Shown here one piece after another: positions 34,749-44,778 of a DNA stretch of 48,174 nucleotides. The translations under genes and the position numbers were made by a program. The stretch covers positions 1 through 48,174 of the forward strand of contig DATLUO010000226.1 of assembly GCA_035533075.1 (NCBI GenBank). The letters run 5' to 3'. Source of the DNA: Pirellulales bacterium (lineage in GTDB: Bacteria; Planctomycetota; Planctomycetia; Pirellulales; JAICIG01). Position 1 is the stretch's first letter; each line of letters starts with the position of its first letter. Under the pieces are notes generated by a model. That model did no database searches. It was given only the letters and a program-made list of their open reading frames with translations, and was not told the DNA's origin.

Positions 34749-35615
34749 TCAGGGTCGCGCGACGTCGGCGAGCTGGGGGATTGAGTGGAGCGGTCGCCAA
34801 TCGTTGGCGTGCCAGCTTCCGTGTCGCGCGAGGCTGTCGAGCGTCACTTCTTGCGCTTGGTACAGCGCTTTCACGTGGTGCTTTCGTAACGACGCTGAAT
34901 ACATTCCGCGCACCCGGACGTACCACTCATCGTTGGCCGGTGGAGCAGGCGGTCGAAGTCGGGCCAGTGGATAACCATTGGTCGCCTGCGGCGACCTAGC
35001 AGGTTGCGACGCTCCCGGCGGCCGAACCGTCGGCGGATTTCGCACAAGCGACGAAGTTGGGACCACCGCGGTCGGAGCGAGGGGCGGCGGCGATGGTTCG
35101 ACCAACTCGGCCTCAATCGGCACGTCGGCCACTGGCGTCGATGGGAACCGGGGGGTGGCCGCTCTCTCCGTCGTCGCTGCCGGTGGCTGTGAGGCAGGCG
35201 GCCCGACCGCCGCGGGCGCGGGTGCGAAGAAGTCGCCGATGCGCATCCACGGCCCGTTCGACGCACATATCAGGTCGTCGTCAGCGACGCGCCCCGCGAG
35301 GCGAAGCTGCTCGACTTCGTGGCGGTGCAAGGAGCTGACAATGCGGCCCCCACGAATCACCCGCAGCTCGCCTCTCTTGTGCCGGCTGACCGGTGTGGCA
35401 GGATCCGCCGCGGGCGGATGCTGATCGTTCGTCGTCCGCGCCGGGGCAGCAAGGAATTCGGCGATCGACATCCAGTCGGCGTTGCGCACCGAGACATGAT
35501 CGGCCAACGTAATGCGGCCTGAGGCGAGCAAACGCTCCAACCCCGCGCGATCGGTCGGCCCAAACGCTACGCCGTCTTTCAACAGCCGCAAATCGCCCTG
35601 CTTCTTGCTCGCCAT
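34749..35615 (-). CDS. triple GYF_2-like domain protein
   Basis: 288 residues carrying three similar ~55-residue modules. Module 1 (about 5-60) is GDLRLLKDGVAFGPTDRAGL...LADHVSVRNADWMSIAEFL. Module 2 (about 80-130) is GELRVIRGGRIVSSLHRHEV...DDDLICASNGPWMRIGDFF. Module 3 (about 230-285) is WYVRVRGMYSASLRKHHVKA...LDSLARHGSWHANDWRPL. Each reads like the GYF_2 (DUF4339) fold, which binds proline-rich sequences. A Pro/Ala-rich linker sits between modules 2 and 3. It has no signal peptide or membrane segment. It lies 20 bases after the kinase-Hsp70 stop, and the octamer repeat supplies its GGAG. The proline-rich linkers of the J-like protein could be a target, which is inference. Confidence 0.7.
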   Translation of the reverse strand: MASKKQGDLRLLKDGVAFGPTDRAGLERLLASGRITLADHVSVRNADWMSIAEFLAAPARTTNDQHPPAADPATPVSRHKRGELRVIRGGRIVSSLHRHEVEQLRLAGRVADDDLICASNGPWMRIGDFFAPAPAAVGPPASQPPAATTERAATPRFPSTPVADVPIEAELVEPSPPPLAPTAVVPTSSLVRNPPTVRPPGASQPARSPQATNGYPLARLRPPAPPANDEWYVRVRGMYSASLRKHHVKALYQAQEVTLDSLARHGSWHANDWRPLHSIPQLADVARP

Positions 35616-35644: not shown

Positions 35645-38122
35645 ATTCCGCATCGCTTCGGCCGTCAGAGATTCGCCCCACAGCATGAGATCATCTTCCG
35701 ACAAACTGTTATCGCGGACAAATTCGGCTTTCACTTTCGCCTCATGCCCGACAAGCGTGGCCGACACCTGCAGGCGGCCGTTCTCTTGATAGCTGTAACG
35801 CACCTCGACGGGCCAGCCCGCGGGCAAGTTGGGCGGCAGGCCGCGGATCACACACGTGCCCACCTCCATGCAGGCGTCGGGGATTTCGCTTTCGCCCTCG
35901 ACCACCGCCACCTTCACGGTCGTCTGACCGGCCTTGAACGTCTGGAACCGCTGGGCGGCCGAGTGCGGCAGCGGCGTGTTCTTGGCGATGATCACGCGGT
36001 TCACGCGCTCGCCGCTCTGCGCGTCGATGCCCACGATGCCCAAGCTGTGCGAGTTGATGTTCGTCACCGCGAATTGCGCGTGGCCGCCGCCGCACCCCTG
36101 CTGTTGGAGCATAACGTCCGCATACAGCGCCGCGCCGTGGGCCACCGCTTCGTCGACCGAAACCGAGTAATCGACGGCGCGGCCCGCCAGCTTCTCCAGC
36201 ATGCGGCGAATCATCGGCATTCGCGTCGCCCCGCCCACGACCAGCACCCGATCGATGTCCGGCCAGGTCAACCCCGCCTGCATTACCACAATGTCGGCGG
36301 TAGTGCCGGTGCGCAGTACCAGCGGCGCAGTCGCCTCTTCGAACTCTTGCCGCGTGATCTCCACTTTCAACCGCCGGCCGGCGTGGTTGACGAACATGGT
36401 CGCCTTCAGCCGTTCCGAAAGGGTTCTTTTGGCTGATTCCGCGGCCAGCCACATGTCTTCGAGAGTCTCCGGGCATTGCCGCGGGTCTTCGCCCAGCTCT
36501 TTCTGCAACCGTTCCGCGGCGATCTCGACCAGTTTTTCGTCCCAATCTTTGCCGCCCAGCCGCACGTCGCCGTCGGTCGCCAGCGCCTTGAACGACTGGT
36601 CCCGCATCTCCACCACGGTCACGTCGAACGTTCCGCCGCCCAGGTCGTACACCAGCGCGCGCAGGGGCTTGTCTCCCTTGACCCTGCCCGATCGGTCGAG
36701 AAAGCCCTCCTGATAACCGTAAGCAATGGCCGCGGCGGTCGGCTCGTTGAGAATGTCGAGCACTTCCAGTCCGGCCAAACGGCCGGCGTCCATGGTGGCG
36801 CGACGCCGCGTTTCGTCGAAATACGCGGGCACCGTGATGACCGCCTTATCAACCGCGCCGAGTTTGCGTTGGGCGTCGGCCTTCAGCCGCCGCAAGATAT
36901 AGCTGGAAATGACCTCGGGCGGCAGCGGCTCGCCGTTGATCTTTTTGTGGTAATGCTTGCTCCCCATATCACGCTTGACGCAGTCAGCGACCTTCTCGGG
37001 TTCGATCGCCGCGGCCAACACGGCCTGTTTTCCGACGACCGTGCCGCCGTCGTCAAAGAGCACCACGCTGGGCGTGAGCAAGTCGCCATCGGCGTTCGGA
37101 ATGCTCGTTGGGCGGCCCTGTGGATCGAGGCAAGCAATTACCGAGTAGGTCGTGCCTAGATCGATTCCGACTGCGCGCGCAGGCTGAGCGGCGACAGGCG
37201 ACCGCGGTAAGGGATACGGCTCGCGCTCCGCGCGCGGCAAATGTGCCGGCTCGCGCACAGCCTTCGAAAAGGCATCAGCGAAGGAAACGCAGCTTGGGAA
37301 GCGGTCGTTCGGATGCTTCGACAGGGCGCGTTTCACCGCAGTGGAGACTGCCGCTGGAATCGTGGGCACGAGTGCGTGCAGAACGTCGGGCTCCTGCGTC
37401 ACCTGGGCTACGTAGATTCCATTTGCCGTCGAACCTTCAATTGGGTGACGGTCCGCTAGGCACTGAAAGACGGTGACGGCCAGAGCGTATTGGTCGGTCT
37501 TGCCGTCGATCGGCTTGCCCATAATGAGTTCGGGTGCCATGTACTCTGGCGTCCCCAGCACCATGCCCGCCCTCGTGAAGCCTTGCTTCGAATCCGCTTG
37601 GTCTGTCGCGAGAACCTTAGCGATACCAAAATCGCTCAAATATGCGTTTCCAGGCTCATCGAAGAGGATGTTCCCTGGCTTCACGTCTCGGTGGACGTAG
37701 CCCCGCGTGCCAACAAAGTCCAGCGCGCCGGCGATATGGGGAAGCCATTCGAGCACGCCGGCAAGCTTTCCTTGAATGGGCTTTTCGCGGTCCGTTCGAA
37801 GTCGGTCATCAAGGCTGCCGCCGGACAGGAACTGCATCACCGCGAAGGGAAGGCCGTCGTGTTCGTCCACGTCCGTTATCTTGACGATATGCGGGTGCGA
37901 CAGGCGCACGAGCGATCGAATTTCGCGCGAAAAACGCTGAGCGAATTCGTCGTCCGCCATCAAAGTACGGCGCGGAACTTTGATGACCACGTCGGCCTGT
38001 AGCTTGCCGTCGTGCGCACGGAAGACGAACCCCATGCCGCCTTCGCCGAGCTTGGCGGTTACGCGGTAACGGCCACCGGACAAGTCGATGCCCGTCCAAT
38101 CGAGGTTGACGTCTAGGCTCAC
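35636..38122 (-). CDS. Ser/Thr protein kinase fused to Hsp70 (DnaK-like) domain
   Basis: 828 residues from GTG, with AGGAG nine bases upstream. Residues 19-285 are a Hanks-type kinase with intact motifs: glycine loop LGEGGMGFVF, VIK lysine at about 48, HRDVKPGN with catalytic Asp146, DFG at 164-166, GTPEYMAPE. A short Pro/Arg linker leads at 316 to an Hsp70 nucleotide-binding domain: AVGIDLGTTYSVIACLD, VPAYFDETRRRATMDAGRLA, VYDLGGGTFDVTVVE, VLVVGGATRMPMI. A beta-type substrate-binding half follows (SHSLGIVGIDAQSGERVNRV ... GRLQVSATLVG). The helical lid normally closing the substrate is reduced to about 20 residues. It heads an operon with the GYF and J-like genes and is divergent from the FHA-ABC transporter. 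Both enzyme halves look catalytically complete. Role by inference: phospho-signalling coupled to protein folding. Confidence 0.93.
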   Translation of the reverse strand: MSLDVNLDWTGIDLSGGRYRVTAKLGEGGMGFVFRAHDGKLQADVVIKVPRRTLMADDEFAQRFSREIRSLVRLSHPHIVKITDVDEHDGLPFAVMQFLSGGSLDDRLRTDREKPIQGKLAGVLEWLPHIAGALDFVGTRGYVHRDVKPGNILFDEPGNAYLSDFGIAKVLATDQADSKQGFTRAGMVLGTPEYMAPELIMGKPIDGKTDQYALAVTVFQCLADRHPIEGSTANGIYVAQVTQEPDVLHALVPTIPAAVSTAVKRALSKHPNDRFPSCVSFADAFSKAVREPAHLPRAEREPYPLPRSPVAAQPARAVGIDLGTTYSVIACLDPQGRPTSIPNADGDLLTPSVVLFDDGGTVVGKQAVLAAAIEPEKVADCVKRDMGSKHYHKKINGEPLPPEVISSYILRRLKADAQRKLGAVDKAVITVPAYFDETRRRATMDAGRLAGLEVLDILNEPTAAAIAYGYQEGFLDRSGRVKGDKPLRALVYDLGGGTFDVTVVEMRDQSFKALATDGDVRLGGKDWDEKLVEIAAERLQKELGEDPRQCPETLEDMWLAAESAKRTLSERLKATMFVNHAGRRLKVEITRQEFEEATAPLVLRTGTTADIVVMQAGLTWPDIDRVLVVGGATRMPMIRRMLEKLAGRAVDYSVSVDEAVAHGAALYADVMLQQQGCGGGHAQFAVTNINSHSLGIVGIDAQSGERVNRVIIAKNTPLPHSAAQRFQTFKAGQTTVKVAVVEGESEIPDACMEVGTCVIRGLPPNLPAGWPVEVRYSYQENGRLQVSATLVGHEAKVKAEFVRDNSLSEDDLMLWGESLTAEAMRNGE

Positions 38123-38365
38123 GTTTGCTGCTCCTAACGCGTCTTGGTCCGAGCGGCGAGTGTTGGGGACGCTGCCAGGCTTGCACGAGATCGAGCATAG
38201 CCGGGCCGAAGCCGGTACGCAAGCATGGCGGCCAGATGAAGCCTGCTGATTGTAGGGCGGCGCGAACTCTCTTACGATAGTCAGAGGCCAAAGGCTGCGC
38301 CCTCAAAGAACGTCTCTCGGGGCCCAGGCCCAACCCGATTGACCGTTCAACAGCGAGAAAGAGCG

Positions 38366-40990
38366 ATGGCGGCACGGAACCGATGGACGTTCGGGCGTGA
38401 TCCGAACTGCGATATTGTCATCGAACACGCGGCGGTGTCATCCCGGCATTGCCAGTTGACCCGCCTCCCTGATGGGTTCGTGCTGGAAGATCTCGGGTCG
38501 AGCAAGGGCACCTTCGTCAACGGCCAAAGGATCTCGGCAGTGGTCAAGGTCGGGCCGCACGATCAAATCACCCTCGGACACGATTGTCGGTTGCCGTGGC
38601 CAGGACCAACGGCCGCCCCGGGGCGGGTCATCCCAATCGGCCGCGCAGACGACAACGACGTTGTTCTCGACTATCCGATGGTTTCCCTTCACCACGCGCA
38701 GTTGATCGTGAACGGCTCACAACTGACGCTGGAAGATCTGCGGTCGAGCCACGGAACCGCAATTGGAAGTCCCGAACGAAAAATCACCAGGGCGCCGCTG
38801 TCCCCTAACGACGTCGTCTATTTCGGCTCGCTACGTGTGCCGGCGCAGCGTCTCCTGGCGGGTCGGCTCGTCTTGGGCCAAAAACCCAGCCTTCAGGTGA
38901 AGGTTCCCGTGTCGGCGATCATCTTCGGTCGCGATCCATCGTGCGATCAGGTGCTGGATGACCCTCTCGTCTCGCGCCGGCACGCTCGCTTGATCCGCAG
39001 TGAGCAGGGCTATTTGATCGAAGATTTGGGCTCGACGAACGGCACCTTCCTCAACGGCCGGCGGTTGGCGGAAAAAGCGCCAGTGCAGCCGGGTGACCGA
39101 ATTGGGCTGGGAGATTGCGTGTTTCAATTGACTGACGACGGCAGGCTCGAGAGGCGAGATTATCGCGGCAACGTCACACTCGAGGCGCGTGATATCGGCG
39201 TTTCCGTCCCCCGCCGACGTTTGCTCGAAGGGGTCTCATTAACCATCTTCCCTTCAGAATTCGTGGGTTTGATGGGACCCAGCGGAGCTGGAAAAACAAC
39301 TCTCATGACCGCCCTGAACGGCTACACGCCGCCCAGCACCGGTCACGTCATGGTCAATGGCAGCGATCTGTATTCGAATTACGATCAATTCAGCGGCTCG
39401 ATCGGCTACGTGCCTCAAGACGACATCATCCACCGAGAGCTGACTGTCTACCAGGCACTCTACTTCACGGCGAAGCTTAGGCTGCCCGCCGATTATTCGC
39501 GGCAAGACATTCAATCCCGGATCGCAACGGTGCTCGACGAGCTCGGCATCACGGGGACCGAGCACGTGCCAATTGGTTCGCCGGAAACAAAAAAGGGCAT
39601 AAGCGGGGGCCAGCGCAAGCGCGTCAATTTGGCGATGGAGCTTCTCACCGACCCCTCCCTGCTGTTCCTCGATGAACCGACTTCCGGACTGTCGTCGGGC
39701 GACACGCTGGTAGTGATGCGGATGCTGCGCAAGCTGGCTGACCGTGGGAAGACGATCTTGCTGACGATCCATCAGCCGAGCCTCGAGGTTTTCCGGTTGA
39801 TGGACAACCTTGTCTTTGTGGCGCGCGACAAAGAACAGGACGGCCCTGGCACGGTCGTTTACTATGGCCCGGCGTACCCGGATGCCGTCGAGTTCTTCAA
39901 TCCAAATGGTGTGCCGAACCTGCGGCCAGGCGCGGATGCGCCGCCTGAGGCGGTGGAAGAAGGCTATAAGAAGGGCTGCCAAGAGCACGGCCACGCGGAT
40001 TGGGTCCGGCGCTATGGCGGCTCGGTCCACCACCGCGACTACGTGGCATCCCGCGCCGGCCGGCAGCCGAGCATCGGCCAGTTGGCCTCGTCGTACAAGA
40101 AGCGCCCGGGCTTCGATCTGCGGCAGTGGCTGACCTTAACCGCCCGCGCGGCGACGATCAAAGCCAAAGACCACCGCAACACGGCGGTTTTGCTGGTGCA
40201 GGCCCCGATCATTGCACTGCTCATCAACGCTGTATTTAGCGCCCAGGTCGCGGAAGCCCAGGCAAATCCGGTTCAAGCGTCAAACTCGCTGTCAGTAACG
40301 GTCTTTCTGCTTGTGCTTTCCGCTTTATGGTTCGGCTGCTCCAACTCGGTCCGCGACATCGTCGGCGAAGCCGCGATCTATCGGCGCGAACGGATGGTCG
40401 GTTTATCGATCGGTTCCTACGTGGCCTCGAAGTTTACTGTGCTGGGAGGCCTTTGCGTTCTGCAATGCCTCGTTCTGCAAGCCCTGGTCGCACGGGGGTG
40501 CGACCTAAAAGCGGGATTCCCAGGCATGTTCGCGGTGCTGTTGGTTGTCGCGCTCGTCGGGGTGGCGATTGGCCTGGCGGTGTCGGCATTTGCGAAGACT
40601 TCGGAGTTTGCCATTGCCATGCTCCCAATCGTTCTGCTGCCGATGGTGATTCTTGGCGGGATCATGCTACCGGTACATAGGATTCAGGCCGGCGTTCGCC
40701 CGATGGCCCAGCTCATGCCGTCGCGTTGGGGGTTCGAGGGCCTCCTCCTCTTGGAGAATAAAAGACGATCGCCGTTTAGCGCGCCCGCCGAGAGAAAAAA
40801 AGACGAGAAACGTTCGTCGGCTCCGGTCATGGAGAGACGCGACTGGGCCGAATACTATTTTCCGGCAAATCAACACCGGTCCGGCGTCATCGCAGCGTTC
40901 GTGGCGCTCCTCGCCATGTTGACGGTGCTTATAACGGCAATTTGTTTGATTCTGCGATCGCGCGATATACGTGCGCGACGAACGCGGTGA
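38366..40990 (+). CDS. ABCG-type ABC transporter with three N-terminal FHA domains
   Basis: The 874-residue protein has three FHA domains in series: about 6-80 (TFGRDPNCDIVIEHAAVSSR, GSSKGTFVNGQ), 93-165 (IGRADDNDVVLDYPMVSLHH, RSSHGTAIG) and 185-260 (FGRDPSCDQVLDDPLVSRRH, GSTNGTFLNG). An ABC ATPase follows, with Walker A GPSGAGKTTL, signature SGGQRKRVNLAMELL, Walker B LLFLDEPTSGL and an H-loop in ILLTIHQPSLEVFR. A membrane half of about six helices ends the protein. The N-terminal FHA domains are of the phosphothreonine-reading type, with GR, SxxH and N-G residues mostly intact; domain 2 is the least canonical. The transported substrate is unknown. It is divergent from the kinase-Hsp70 gene by 243 bases, so kinase-directed recruitment or gating is a reasonable inference. 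Confidence 0.93.
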   Translation: MAARNRWTFGRDPNCDIVIEHAAVSSRHCQLTRLPDGFVLEDLGSSKGTFVNGQRISAVVKVGPHDQITLGHDCRLPWPGPTAAPGRVIPIGRADDNDVVLDYPMVSLHHAQLIVNGSQLTLEDLRSSHGTAIGSPERKITRAPLSPNDVVYFGSLRVPAQRLLAGRLVLGQKPSLQVKVPVSAIIFGRDPSCDQVLDDPLVSRRHARLIRSEQGYLIEDLGSTNGTFLNGRRLAEKAPVQPGDRIGLGDCVFQLTDDGRLERRDYRGNVTLEARDIGVSVPRRRLLEGVSLTIFPSEFVGLMGPSGAGKTTLMTALNGYTPPSTGHVMVNGSDLYSNYDQFSGSIGYVPQDDIIHRELTVYQALYFTAKLRLPADYSRQDIQSRIATVLDELGITGTEHVPIGSPETKKGISGGQRKRVNLAMELLTDPSLLFLDEPTSGLSSGDTLVVMRMLRKLADRGKTILLTIHQPSLEVFRLMDNLVFVARDKEQDGPGTVVYYGPAYPDAVEFFNPNGVPNLRPGADAPPEAVEEGYKKGCQEHGHADWVRRYGGSVHHRDYVASRAGRQPSIGQLASSYKKRPGFDLRQWLTLTARAATIKAKDHRNTAVLLVQAPIIALLINAVFSAQVAEAQANPVQASNSLSVTVFLLVLSALWFGCSNSVRDIVGEAAIYRRERMVGLSIGSYVASKFTVLGGLCVLQCLVLQALVARGCDLKAGFPGMFAVLLVVALVGVAIGLAVSAFAKTSEFAIAMLPIVLLPMVILGGIMLPVHRIQAGVRPMAQLMPSRWGFEGLLLLENKRRSPFSAPAERKKDEKRSSAPVMERRDWAEYYFPANQHRSGVIAAFVALLAMLTVLITAICLILRSRDIRARRTR

Positions 40991-41428: not shown

Positions 41429-41772
41429 GTGGGGATGGGGGCGACGGTTGCGCGCCGCAAGGGGTGCCGGCAGGGTGCTGCCTTCCGAGGCAAGTGCGAT
41501 CTGAGTGCCGCACATTGCCATCGTGTTGTGCATTTGCAACATGCCCGTTAGCGCATGCTGCCGACAAGCAACGTCGAACGCGCCGCAGGGAGCTGCCGCG
41601 CGAGCGCTGACTTTTGCGAATGCTCGTGGCCGCAAACGACTTACGGCCATCTCTCGCCGAATGGATCCCGATTGTGGCACCGCGCGTGCTTTTGGTTCCA
41701 GCGACACGCATTTCGGCTGGCAACCACATCCAGGCCAGCCATTTTCAGCAACCGCAAAAAGGAAACTCGCCC

Positions 41773-43428
41773 TTGGCCAAAACCCCCAAGCACGCTGGTC
41801 ACACTCGCAAAATCTCGACGGACCCGGCCCACAAACAGAACATGAAACCGCGGTCGAAACCCGTCGCCGGACGCCCGAACGCCTTTGATTTCGACGACGA
41901 ACCGCTGGCCCGCTTGAGCGACGAGCACGAACCGCTCATCGACGACGAAGCCGACGAGACAGCCGAAGCCGCGGATGCCGACGAGGCCGACGAAGAAGAA
42001 CTCGGCTTCGGCGACCAGGAACTGGAAGGCAGCATGGGCGGAGACCGCATCGACGATCCGGTGCGGATCTACCTGATGCAGATGGGCGAGATTCCGCTGT
42101 TGACGCGCGAGCAAGAGATTGCCGCCGCCAAGGAAATCGACCAGGCGCGACGCCGTTATCGCATCACGCTGTTGGCCAGCGACTTTTTGTTGCAAGGCGC
42201 GGTGGCCCTGCTGAAAAAGGTCCGCGACGGCGAGCTGCGGCTCGATCGCACGGTCGATGTCTCCGTGACCGACGCCCAAGAGAAGAAGCGGATCATGGCC
42301 CGGCTTCATCCGAATTTGAAAACGCTCGACCACCTGCTCAAGCAGAACGAGCTTGACTTCCGCACCGTGATGAGCCGCGGCGCCAAGATGCCCGACCGCC
42401 GCGCGGCCTGGCGGCGGCTGGTCTTGCGACGCCACAAGGCCGTGCGGCTCGTCGAAGAGCTCGATTTGCGAACGCAACGCTTGCAGCCGTTGATGGAGAA
42501 ACTGGCCGAAATCTCCCGGCGCATGGACGACCTGCTCGACCAGATCAACGTCCTGCGGGTCAAACACGCTGGGCCGGAGCAAGTGGCCTCGCTACGGAAA
42601 GAGCTGCGTTATCTGCTGCGAATTACGCTGGAAAGCCCGTCGACTTTGCGTGCCCGGACCGCCAACACGGCGGCCTGCCTGACGCGCTACGATGCGGCCA
42701 AGCGCGTGCTGTCGGCGGGCAACTTGCGTCTGGTGGTCTCCATCGCCAAGCGCTATCGCAACCGGGGCCTGAGCTTCCTCGATTTGATTCAGGAAGGGAA
42801 CACCGGGCTGATGCGGGCGGTCGACAAGTTCGAGCACGGCCGCGGCTTCAAGTTCTCGACCTACGCGACTTGGTGGATTCGCCAGGCCATTACGCGGGCC
42901 ATCGCCGACCAGAGCCGCACCATCCGTTTGCCGGTCCACATGATCGAAACGATGGGCCGGGTGAGGGAGGTCACGCGCCGCTGGTTGCAAGAATACGGCC
43001 GCGAACCGACGGTCGACGAAACGGCGGCCGAAACCGGGCTGACTCTGGAAGAGGCCCGCTGCGTGTTGAAGATGACGCGGCATCCGCTCTCGCTGGACCA
43101 GCCGGTGGGCGACCACGACGACAGCTTCTTCGGCGAGTTCGTGGAAGACCATCGCCACGAGGACCCGCTGCACGACATGACGCAAAACATGCTCAAAGAG
43201 CGGCTGGCCGACGCCCTGGGCGAGCTGAATTATCGCGAGCGCGAAATCCTCCGATTGCGTTACGGACTGGCCGACGGGTATTCTTACACATTGGAGGAGG
43301 TCGGAAAGATCTTCTCGGTGACGCGGGAGCGCGTGCGGCAGATCGAGGCCAAGGCCGTCCGCAAGTTGCAGCATCCCGTGCGTTGCCGCCGCCTGGTCGG
43401 CTTCCTCGATCAGGTCGGCTCGGCGTGA
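41773..43428 (+). CDS. rpoD: primary-type sigma-70 factor
   Basis: About 551 residues from TTG (AAAGGAAAC upstream), or 528 from ATG at 41842. The N-terminus is acidic and lacks a recognisable region 1.1. Region 1.2 is [21 protein letters not shown] helical non-conserved insertion (about 110-300) precedes region 2: [60 protein letters not shown]. Region 3 ([20 protein letters not shown]) and region 4 ([32 protein letters not shown]) are complete. It binds core RNA polymerase and the -10/-35 elements of housekeeping promoters. It could be a group 2 sigma; the insertion and full regions favour the primary type. Heptamer repeats begin eight bases after the stop. Confidence 0.88.
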
Positions 43429-43476: not shown

Positions 43477-44778
43477 ATGAAGAGCGAGCATGTCGGCCAG
43501 ACTCCAAGTTTGCAATTCGCAATTGGCAATTGGCAATTTGCAATTTCCTCCCCCCGTCTGCGGTCTGCCGTCTACCGTCTACTTGTCGTCGCATTCATCA
43601 TCGCCATCGCATCAAGCGCCCGCGCCGCCGACCGCTTCGCGGCTATTCGCGACCGAATGGTCGACGACGTTGTCATCGGCCAGGGGGTGACCGACTCGCG
43701 CGTGATCGCGGTCATGCGCAAGGTGCCGCGGCACGAGTTCATGCCCGAAAAGCAGCGCGACAAGGCCTATCGCGACGAGGCCTTGCCGATCGGCGAAGGG
43801 CAGACGATCTCGCCGCCGTTTGTGGTGGCCTCGATGACCGAGCATCTCGATCCACAGCCCGACGACAAGGTGCTGGAGATCGGCACGGGCAGCGGTTATC
43901 AGGCGGCCGTGCTGAGCGGTCTGGTGAAAGACGTCTACACGATCGAGATTCAAAAGCCGTTGGGGGTCCGCGCCGAAGCCACGTTGCGGCGGATCGGCTA
44001 TCAGAACGTCCATTGCCGCATCGGCGACGGCTACCAGGGATGGCCCGAAGCCGCGCCCTTCGACAAGATCATCGTCACCTGTTCGCCCGAAAAAATCCCC
44101 CAGCCGCTCATCGACCAGTTGGCCGACGGCGGCCGCATGATGATTCCGGTCGGCCAGCGGTTTCAGCAGGTGCTCTATCTGTATAAGAAGAGCGGCGGCA
44201 AGCTGGAAAAAGAGGCGGTCGAGGCGACGATGTTTGTGCCGATGACGGGCACGGCCGAGAATTTGCGCGAGGTGGAATATGATTCGGCGCACCCGGAGAT
44301 GATCAACGGGAGCTTCGAGAAATCGACGGTGATCGAGGGCGTGCCCGACGGCTGGTACTACGCGCGGCAGTGCAAGCTGGAAGCCGTCGACCGAGCGCCC
44401 GACGGGCGGCAGATACTCACCTGCCGCAACATCGAGCCGGGCAAGTTTTCGCAGATTCTGCAGGCGTTTGGCGTCGATGGCCGAAAGGTTCGGCAGTTGG
44501 AAGTGGGGCTGTGGGTCCAAGGCTTCGACATTCGTCCGCCCCTGACGGAGCCCGACCGCCGGCCGCGGCTGATCGTGAATTATTACGACCAGAACAAGGC
44601 GTTCATCAAAGAGGAGTCGCTGGGTCCGTGGACGGGCACCTTCGGCTGGATCGCGGTCCGCGATGTGGTTCCCGTTCCGCGTGAGGCCCGCGTGGTCGTG
44701 CTCTATCTGGGCATGCTGGGCGCGACGGGCGAGGTTTCTTTCGACAACGTCAGCGTCAAAGCGGTGGCTGCGAAGTGA
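43477..44778 (+). CDS. pcm: exported protein-L-isoaspartate methyltransferase with C-terminal beta-domain
   Basis: 433 residues. Residues 50-265 are a PCMT domain: MVDDVVIGQGVTDSRVIAVM, RHEFMPEKQRDKAYRDEALP, IGEGQTISPPFVVASMTEHL, VLEIGTGSGYQAAVLSGLV (SAM-binding) and FDKIIVTCSPEKIPQPLIDQ. It methylates L-isoaspartate in aged proteins. The N-terminus has a hydrophobic export segment (LLVVAFIIAIASSARAADRF), so this copy is predicted to act outside the cytoplasm, where the SAM source is unclear. Residues ~270-433 are an extra beta-rich, galactose-binding-like domain (PEMINGSFEKSTVIEGVPDG, VSFDNVSVKAV). Residues ~12-36 are translated heptamer repeats. Start at 43477 is favoured by the AGGGAGAGGG site. 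Confidence 0.85.
   Translation: MKSEHVGQTPSLQFAIGNWQFAISSPRLRSAVYRLLVVAFIIAIASSARAADRFAAIRDRMVDDVVIGQGVTDSRVIAVMRKVPRHEFMPEKQRDKAYRDEALPIGEGQTISPPFVVASMTEHLDPQPDDKVLEIGTGSGYQAAVLSGLVKDVYTIEIQKPLGVRAEATLRRIGYQNVHCRIGDGYQGWPEAAPFDKIIVTCSPEKIPQPLIDQLADGGRMMIPVGQRFQQVLYLYKKSGGKLEKEAVEATMFVPMTGTAENLREVEYDSAHPEMINGSFEKSTVIEGVPDGWYYARQCKLEAVDRAPDGRQILTCRNIEPGKFSQILQAFGVDGRKVRQLEVGLWVQGFDIRPPLTEPDRRPRLIVNYYDQNKAFIKEESLGPWTGTFGWIAVRDVVPVPREARVVVLYLGMLGATGEVSFDNVSVKAVAAK
43512..43581. repeat. heptamer array inside the methyltransferase N-terminus
   Basis: Ten in-phase 7-mers: GCAATTC, GCAATTG, GCAATTG, GCAATTT, GCAATTT, CCTCCCC, CCGTCTG, CGGTCTG, CCGTCTA, CCGTCTA. They lie within codons 12-35 of the gene starting at 43477. 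Three units equal seven codons, so the translation shows an approximate 7-residue echo (QFAIGNWQFAI). Confidence 0.85.

Follow-up and report, generated by a model that had tools for sequence, protein, structure and literature searches.

The PpkA-PppA-Fha pathway of T6SS is a cassette of kinase, PP2C and FHA genes beside an export machine. Most of what is known about FHA-gated ABC exporters comes from a single mycobacterial example, whose input and substrate are uncertain. In M. tuberculosis, the adjacent Ser/Thr kinase PknF modulates Rv1747, a half-exporter of FHA-ABCG type (PMC3908365). Rv1747 carries two FHA domains, and its condensates and membrane nanoclusters were enhanced by phosphorylation (PMC9312465). 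In addition, a protein with an N-terminal Ser/Thr kinase and a C-terminal HSP70 was reported from Pirellula in 2005 (Krupa and Srinivasan, PMC1262709). The locus described here lies in a stretch of 48,174 nucleotides (the window), which is one entire contig of the 8.5-Mb draft genome of a Pirellulales bacterium.

Architecture of the exporter and its FHA domains

The exporter ORF started with ATG at 38366 and its stop was at 40990, with TTG at 38339 as a possible alternative start in the mechanical ORF call (features in Table 1). Three FHA stretches were recognised by Pfam (whole-protein E 7e-60), and in the AlphaFold model (30-sequence alignment, pLDDT 88, pTM 0.81) they formed three separate beta-sandwiches with short breaks between them, followed by the ABCG fold. 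Both agreed with the first-pass annotation, which had described three tandem FHA domains fused ahead of an ABCG exporter, and the second domain, regarded there as the least canonical, indeed had the lowest bit score. The linkers between the FHA domains were about 19 and 30 residues, and in that region only residues 81-84 were predicted to be disordered. Among solved structures, ABCG2 and ABCG1 were nearest, with TM-scores by target length of up to 0.86, and sequence comparison with ABCG1 across residues 255-795 agreed with this fold assignment. The Walker A, signature and Walker B residues were invariant among 30 homologues. Downstream of the exporter, a factor of the sigma-70 family, comprising regions 1.2, 2, 3 and 4 (41614-43428), was followed by a PCMT gene (43477-44778).

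Table 1. Features of the kinase-HSP70 and FHA-ABCG exporter locus, in coordinates of the window
Feature	Position	Strand	Basis or remark
Membrane-anchored M48 metallopeptidase (HEIAH), N-terminal membrane segment	32027..33004	+	
J-like domain (no HPD) and one TM segment	33051..34652	-	structure matches, weak
GYF_2-like triple-repeat protein	34749..35615	-	20 bp after kinase-HSP70 gene; below Pfam cut-off
Ser/Thr kinase fused to HSP70, 828 aa, without TM segment	35636..38122	-	Pfam, hydropathy
HSP70 ATPase and most of substrate-binding domain, aa 317-811	35690..37174	-	profile 1-506 of 599; nucleotide motifs intact
Kinase catalytic domain, aa 19-275, HRD and DFG present	37298..38068	-	Pfam, motif alignment
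Divergent intergenic region, 243 bp	38123..38365	.	between kinase-HSP70 and exporter genes
FHAx3-ABCG half-exporter, 874 aa	38366..40990	+	ORF call, Pfam, AlphaFold
FHA1, aa 7-71	38384..38578	+	76 bits; Arg, Ser, His of pThr site kept; SSKGT
FHA2, aa 91-154	38636..38827	+	55 bits; Arg, Ser, His kept; SSHGT; least canonical
FHA3, aa 185-249	38918..39112	+	83 bits; fully canonical; ATPase-proximal
ABC ATPase (ABC_tran), aa 287-440	39224..39685	+	Pfam
ABC2 membrane domain (ABC2_membrane), aa 586-795	40121..40750	+	Pfam

Homologues were spread over many phyla, and among 114 FHA-ABCG ORFs of public genomes three FHA domains were present in 60, two in 45, one in 8 and four in 1. The triple FHA, which had been put forward as a special feature, was thus shared by more than half of the homologues and was rejected as a novelty. 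In the exporter-core tree the window exporter grouped with a paralogue of its own genome (74% over the core), then with exporters from other genomes of the order and with a four-FHA protein from a deltaproteobacterium, and it was apart from the Acidobacteriota triples. Since the three-FHA state needed at least nine changes on well-supported branches, FHA number changes easily. Downstream of the four-FHA exporter lay a gene for a kinase that also carries AAA_16 and TPR repeats (L071 9920-18613).

Arg and Ser, which contact the phosphate, were retained in FHA1, FHA2 and FHA3 of the window exporter, so the loss of phosphothreonine-binding residues in all three domains, named beforehand as a result that would speak against the reading, did not occur. 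The Asn of NG[TV] was replaced by Lys in FHA1 and by His in FHA2, and was intact in FHA3, which alone possessed the complete pThr motif. Because the ATPase-proximal FHA retained Arg, Ser, His and Asn without exception in 55 triple exporters from outside the planctomycetes, the domain next to the ATPase is predicted to be the conserved reader. In FHA1 of these 55, Tyr or Phe usually replaced Asn, and the outer domains FHA1 and FHA2 look tuned or auxiliary.

The own-genome paralogue, on contig C257, was 72%-identical to the window exporter and had a different gene context without M48. It was clustered with NUDIX, TCAD9/TPR-S, a kinase, several FHA proteins and an FHA-nSTAND1-TPR-DUF2610 protein (L152, C257 20001-40000; L153), a cluster reminiscent of NTP-dependent conflict systems.

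Linkage of kinase, M48 peptidase and exporter

Of 63 exporter loci with enough flanking sequence, 24 had a kinase no more than 300 bp away and 39 had one no more than 5 kb away, whereas the kinase density of the own genome would predict roughly 4% and 12%. These loci are related to one another, so that significance is overstated. The linkage of the exporter with a partner Ser/Thr kinase, as suggested by the first-pass annotation, was therefore conserved far above chance. The top matches of the window kinase domain were exporter-linked kinases, namely those of the own paralogue cluster on C257 (54%), of G258 (49%) and of G255 (46%), and the other kinases of these three genomes reached at most 42%, or at most 38% if the whole domain was covered. 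Conserved adjacency together with exporter-linked best relatives strengthens the partnership.

With regard to orientation, 34 of the 37 exporter-adjacent kinases were co-directional with the exporter and two were divergent, and the orthologous kinases of the own-genome paralogue, G255 and G258 were not divergent. No convincing sigma-70 promoter was found by a sigma-70 scan of the 243-bp region 38123-38365, a scan which planctomycete promoters may escape. Co-regulation had previously been deduced from a shared 243-base promoter; with so rare a layout and no convincing sigma-70 promoter this was not supported, and the shared promoter was rejected as proof of co-regulation. Judged from gene neighbourhood and kinase relatedness, the kinase-exporter partnership is real, without resting on a shared promoter. 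A triple-FHA exporter divergent from a kinase that itself bears an FHA domain was observed in G260 (L154 6263-11174).

An M48 metallopeptidase, a partner missed by the earlier description, was also encoded 5 kb from the window exporter with three intervening genes. Its best matches were the exporter-linked M48 proteins of G255 (7e-54) and G258 (7e-52), and the next best matches there were at 1e-6. In G247, a genome of the same family that was 88% complete, M48, exporter and this kinase were all absent. M48 orthologues (1e-18) were present in five of 297 genomes of the order, and four of the five were exporter-positive (hypergeometric p ~0.002); the M48 relative of G376, on a contig without exporter, was counted for co-occurrence and not for linkage, and the M48 contig of G285 (4.7 kb) was too short to check linkage. 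In Ignavibacteria and Cloacimonadota, M48 lay a short way upstream of the exporter, together with genes for PP2C, FHA or VWA-FHA, LEA_2-like and kinase proteins, and in G427 it was directly downstream. M48 is thus, by this distribution, co-inherited with kinase and exporter, and because it co-occurs with and adjoins exporters elsewhere, the unit consists of kinase, M48 peptidase and FHA exporter, and in some lineages of PP2C as well. No description of a kinase/PP2C/M48/FHA-exporter cassette was found in the open-licence literature.

The gene order in Ignavibacteria and Cloacimonadota was zinc-ribbon-FHA, VWA-FHA, PP2C, M48, LEA_2 (in Ignavibacteria), FHA-ABCG and kinase (L080 6034-13487; L100 3596-12214). 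In G427, HSP70-like, kinase, FHA-ABCG exporter and M48 genes were co-directional, and this exporter belonged to a different branch (L168 410-8497).

The kinase-HSP70 fusion

The kinase gene had been noticed as divergent from the exporter, and it does start 243 bases upstream; its HSP70 half had been missed. This half was without the C-terminal lid and failed the canonical DnaK test (355 bits against 648 needed; profile 3-504 of 625). By hydropathy, a strong candidate TM segment followed the catalytic domain in 35 of the 40 exporter-adjacent kinases that had enough sequence past it, and none was present in the window kinase.

The HSP70 half was 71-82% identical to kinase-free HSP70 proteins of the own genome and G247, in which the 82% copy was cut by the contig end and gives no independent copy of the fusion. 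HSP70 followed by the same GYF_2-like gene was found in the window, in the own contig C79 and in G247:C185, and J-like proteins were near related HSP70 genes in C79, C215 and G247:C50. The J-like candidate of the window is a weak call, with J-domain structures as sole matches (E 0.11-0.47) and the HPD motif missing. A kinase remnant, which would be a sign of an older fusion, was looked for in the HSP70 paralogues and was absent, only the linker being aligned, so an older kinase fusion in them was rejected. In L193 and L194, HSP70 paralogues lay divergent to J-like genes and bore a separate domain of about 110 residues at the N terminus.

The simplest history is that an exporter-linked kinase lost its membrane-sensor end and received in its place the HSP70 of an Hsp70/GYF-like/J-like operon. 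The intact fusion was observed in one draft genome only. Besides the window, only G404 and G427 had HSP70-like genes next to exporters, and the kinase-HSP70 of G353 and of G489 was on another contig than the exporter; HSP70 as a general exporter partner was therefore not accepted, and is kept as suggestive only.

Proposed mechanism and comparison with known systems

On the whole it is rather probable that the locus encodes a phospho-regulated export module, composed of a Ser/Thr kinase, an M48 envelope peptidase and an ABCG half-exporter reading phosphothreonine via N-terminal FHA domains, with Hsp70 as likely input. Architecture, intact motifs, kinase/peptidase/exporter co-inheritance and sensor replacement were read from sequence; phospho-dependent binding, direction of control, Hsp70 input and an exported substrate are what we infer. 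The exporter is probably a homodimer, which would bring six FHA domains together. The kinase would phosphorylate threonines on itself or on a partner, which would be bound by the ATPase-proximal FHA3 and more weakly by FHA1 and FHA2, and this binding would dock the kinase and switch export. In most relatives the kinase would sense through its TM segment; here Hsp70 has replaced this sensor, and unfolded-protein load or Hsp70 nucleotide state would be the likely input, because the Hsp70 that replaced the TM sensor has intact nucleotide motifs. Counting against the module, FHA1 and FHA2 each lack one peptide-contacting Asn. The fusion in a single draft genome, the 5 kb to M48 and the C257 paralogue without M48 also count against it. 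The fuller version, in which the unfolded-protein state is turned into threonine phosphorylation via the ATPase-competent Hsp70 of an Hsp70/GYF-like/J-like operon and is read by the triple-FHA ABCG exporter in a conserved kinase/M48-peptidase/exporter envelope-stress module, is a tentative reading and by itself unlikely.

The HSP70 might not be the sensor at all. It could instead help in folding or docking, or be a moonlighting fusion which holds the chaperone near the exporter, and the kinase would then receive its input from another part, such as the GYF-like or J-like partners. That HSP70, GYF-like and J-like genes make up a separate, kinase-free unit in C79, C215 and G247 is in keeping with this, whereas the fusion occupies the place of the TM sensor in an exporter-linked kinase lineage, and HSP70-like genes adjoin exporters in G404 and G427 too, so this alternative is possible and somewhat doubtful. 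That the fusion is an assembly chimera, the true kinase being an ordinary membrane kinase, is very improbable: it was intact in a single assembly and G247 provides no independent copy, but the 828-codon frame stays open over the junction and the GYF-like gene follows HSP70 as in two other contigs.

The kinase might also tune clustering instead of switching single exporters, with the FHA triplet cross-linking exporters or partners into membrane clusters as in Rv1747. Phosphorylation-enhanced clustering of Rv1747 (PMC9312465) and the multivalence of six FHA domains per exporter dimer favour such clustering, but in Rv1747 the mechanism works through a disordered linker that separates the FHA domains, while the linkers here are short and disorder is confined to the four residues given above, which makes this reading rather improbable. 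Least credible of all is that kinase and exporter are mere neighbours without functional link; this would fit the rare divergent arrangement and the sigma-70 scan that found no shared promoter, yet the adjacency is conserved in several phyla, and the kinases closest to that of the window stand with exporters, in its own genome as in two others.

The pump type itself is common in bacteria, and the unusual part is the kinase, in which Hsp70 stands in place of the usual membrane sensor, so that protein stress may control export. A module of kinase, M48 and sometimes PP2C that is conserved across phyla points to a role in envelope quality. Relatives pair the same exporter lineage with membrane-sensor kinases, and here it is paired with an Hsp70 sensor. 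This is a natural experiment, which would allow a direct test of whether chaperone state can drive bacterial Ser/Thr signalling.

Compared with the PpkA-PppA-Fha pathway, kinase and FHA reader are shared, as is the PP2C phosphatase in the Ignavibacteria cassette, whereas the export machine here is an ABCG transporter. The TagH/Fha profile (TIGR03354) gave 91 bits against the cut-off of 120, over the FHA part only, and no T6SS genes were recognised among the neighbouring genes scanned.

The Pirellula protein resembles the window protein in having kinase then HSP70 in one chain. Members of the kinase-HSP70 family that resembles the G404 copy were encoded by at least 35 genomes, all from one family of the order. 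These Pirellula-type proteins had about 26% identity to the window protein, belonged to another kinase lineage and were mostly without exporter adjacency shown; their HSP70 nucleotide motifs were decayed in the aligned relatives, whereas those of the window were intact. One common family, judged by comparison with G404-type copies, was therefore rejected. The window kinase and HSP70 halves each had closer relatives outside the Pirellula-type family, and the low identity and decayed motifs of the aligned copies argue for a separate fusion in the window. In family f2 (L199-L218 and further genomes), the decayed motifs of Pirellula-type kinase-HSP70 suggest a pseudo-chaperone domain.

Triple-FHA ABCG exporters of Acidobacteriota, Chloroflexota and cyanobacteria (Acaryochloris) had the same architecture, often with an adjacent kinase, but formed a separate branch of the exporter tree, usually with Tyr or Phe for Asn in FHA1. 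With Rv1747/PknF the locus shares FHA domains ahead of an ABCG-type half-exporter and a genetically linked Ser/Thr kinase; FHA, ABCG ATPase and ABC2 were in one polypeptide, with pThr residues. Rv1747 and PknF form an operon, whereas the window has a divergent pair, a kinase-HSP70 and an M48 partner. Because it has three FHA domains with short linkers and no long disordered segment, instead of two around a disordered linker, the window exporter is therefore a variant of Rv1747 and not an orthologue, which works like Rv1747 at most.
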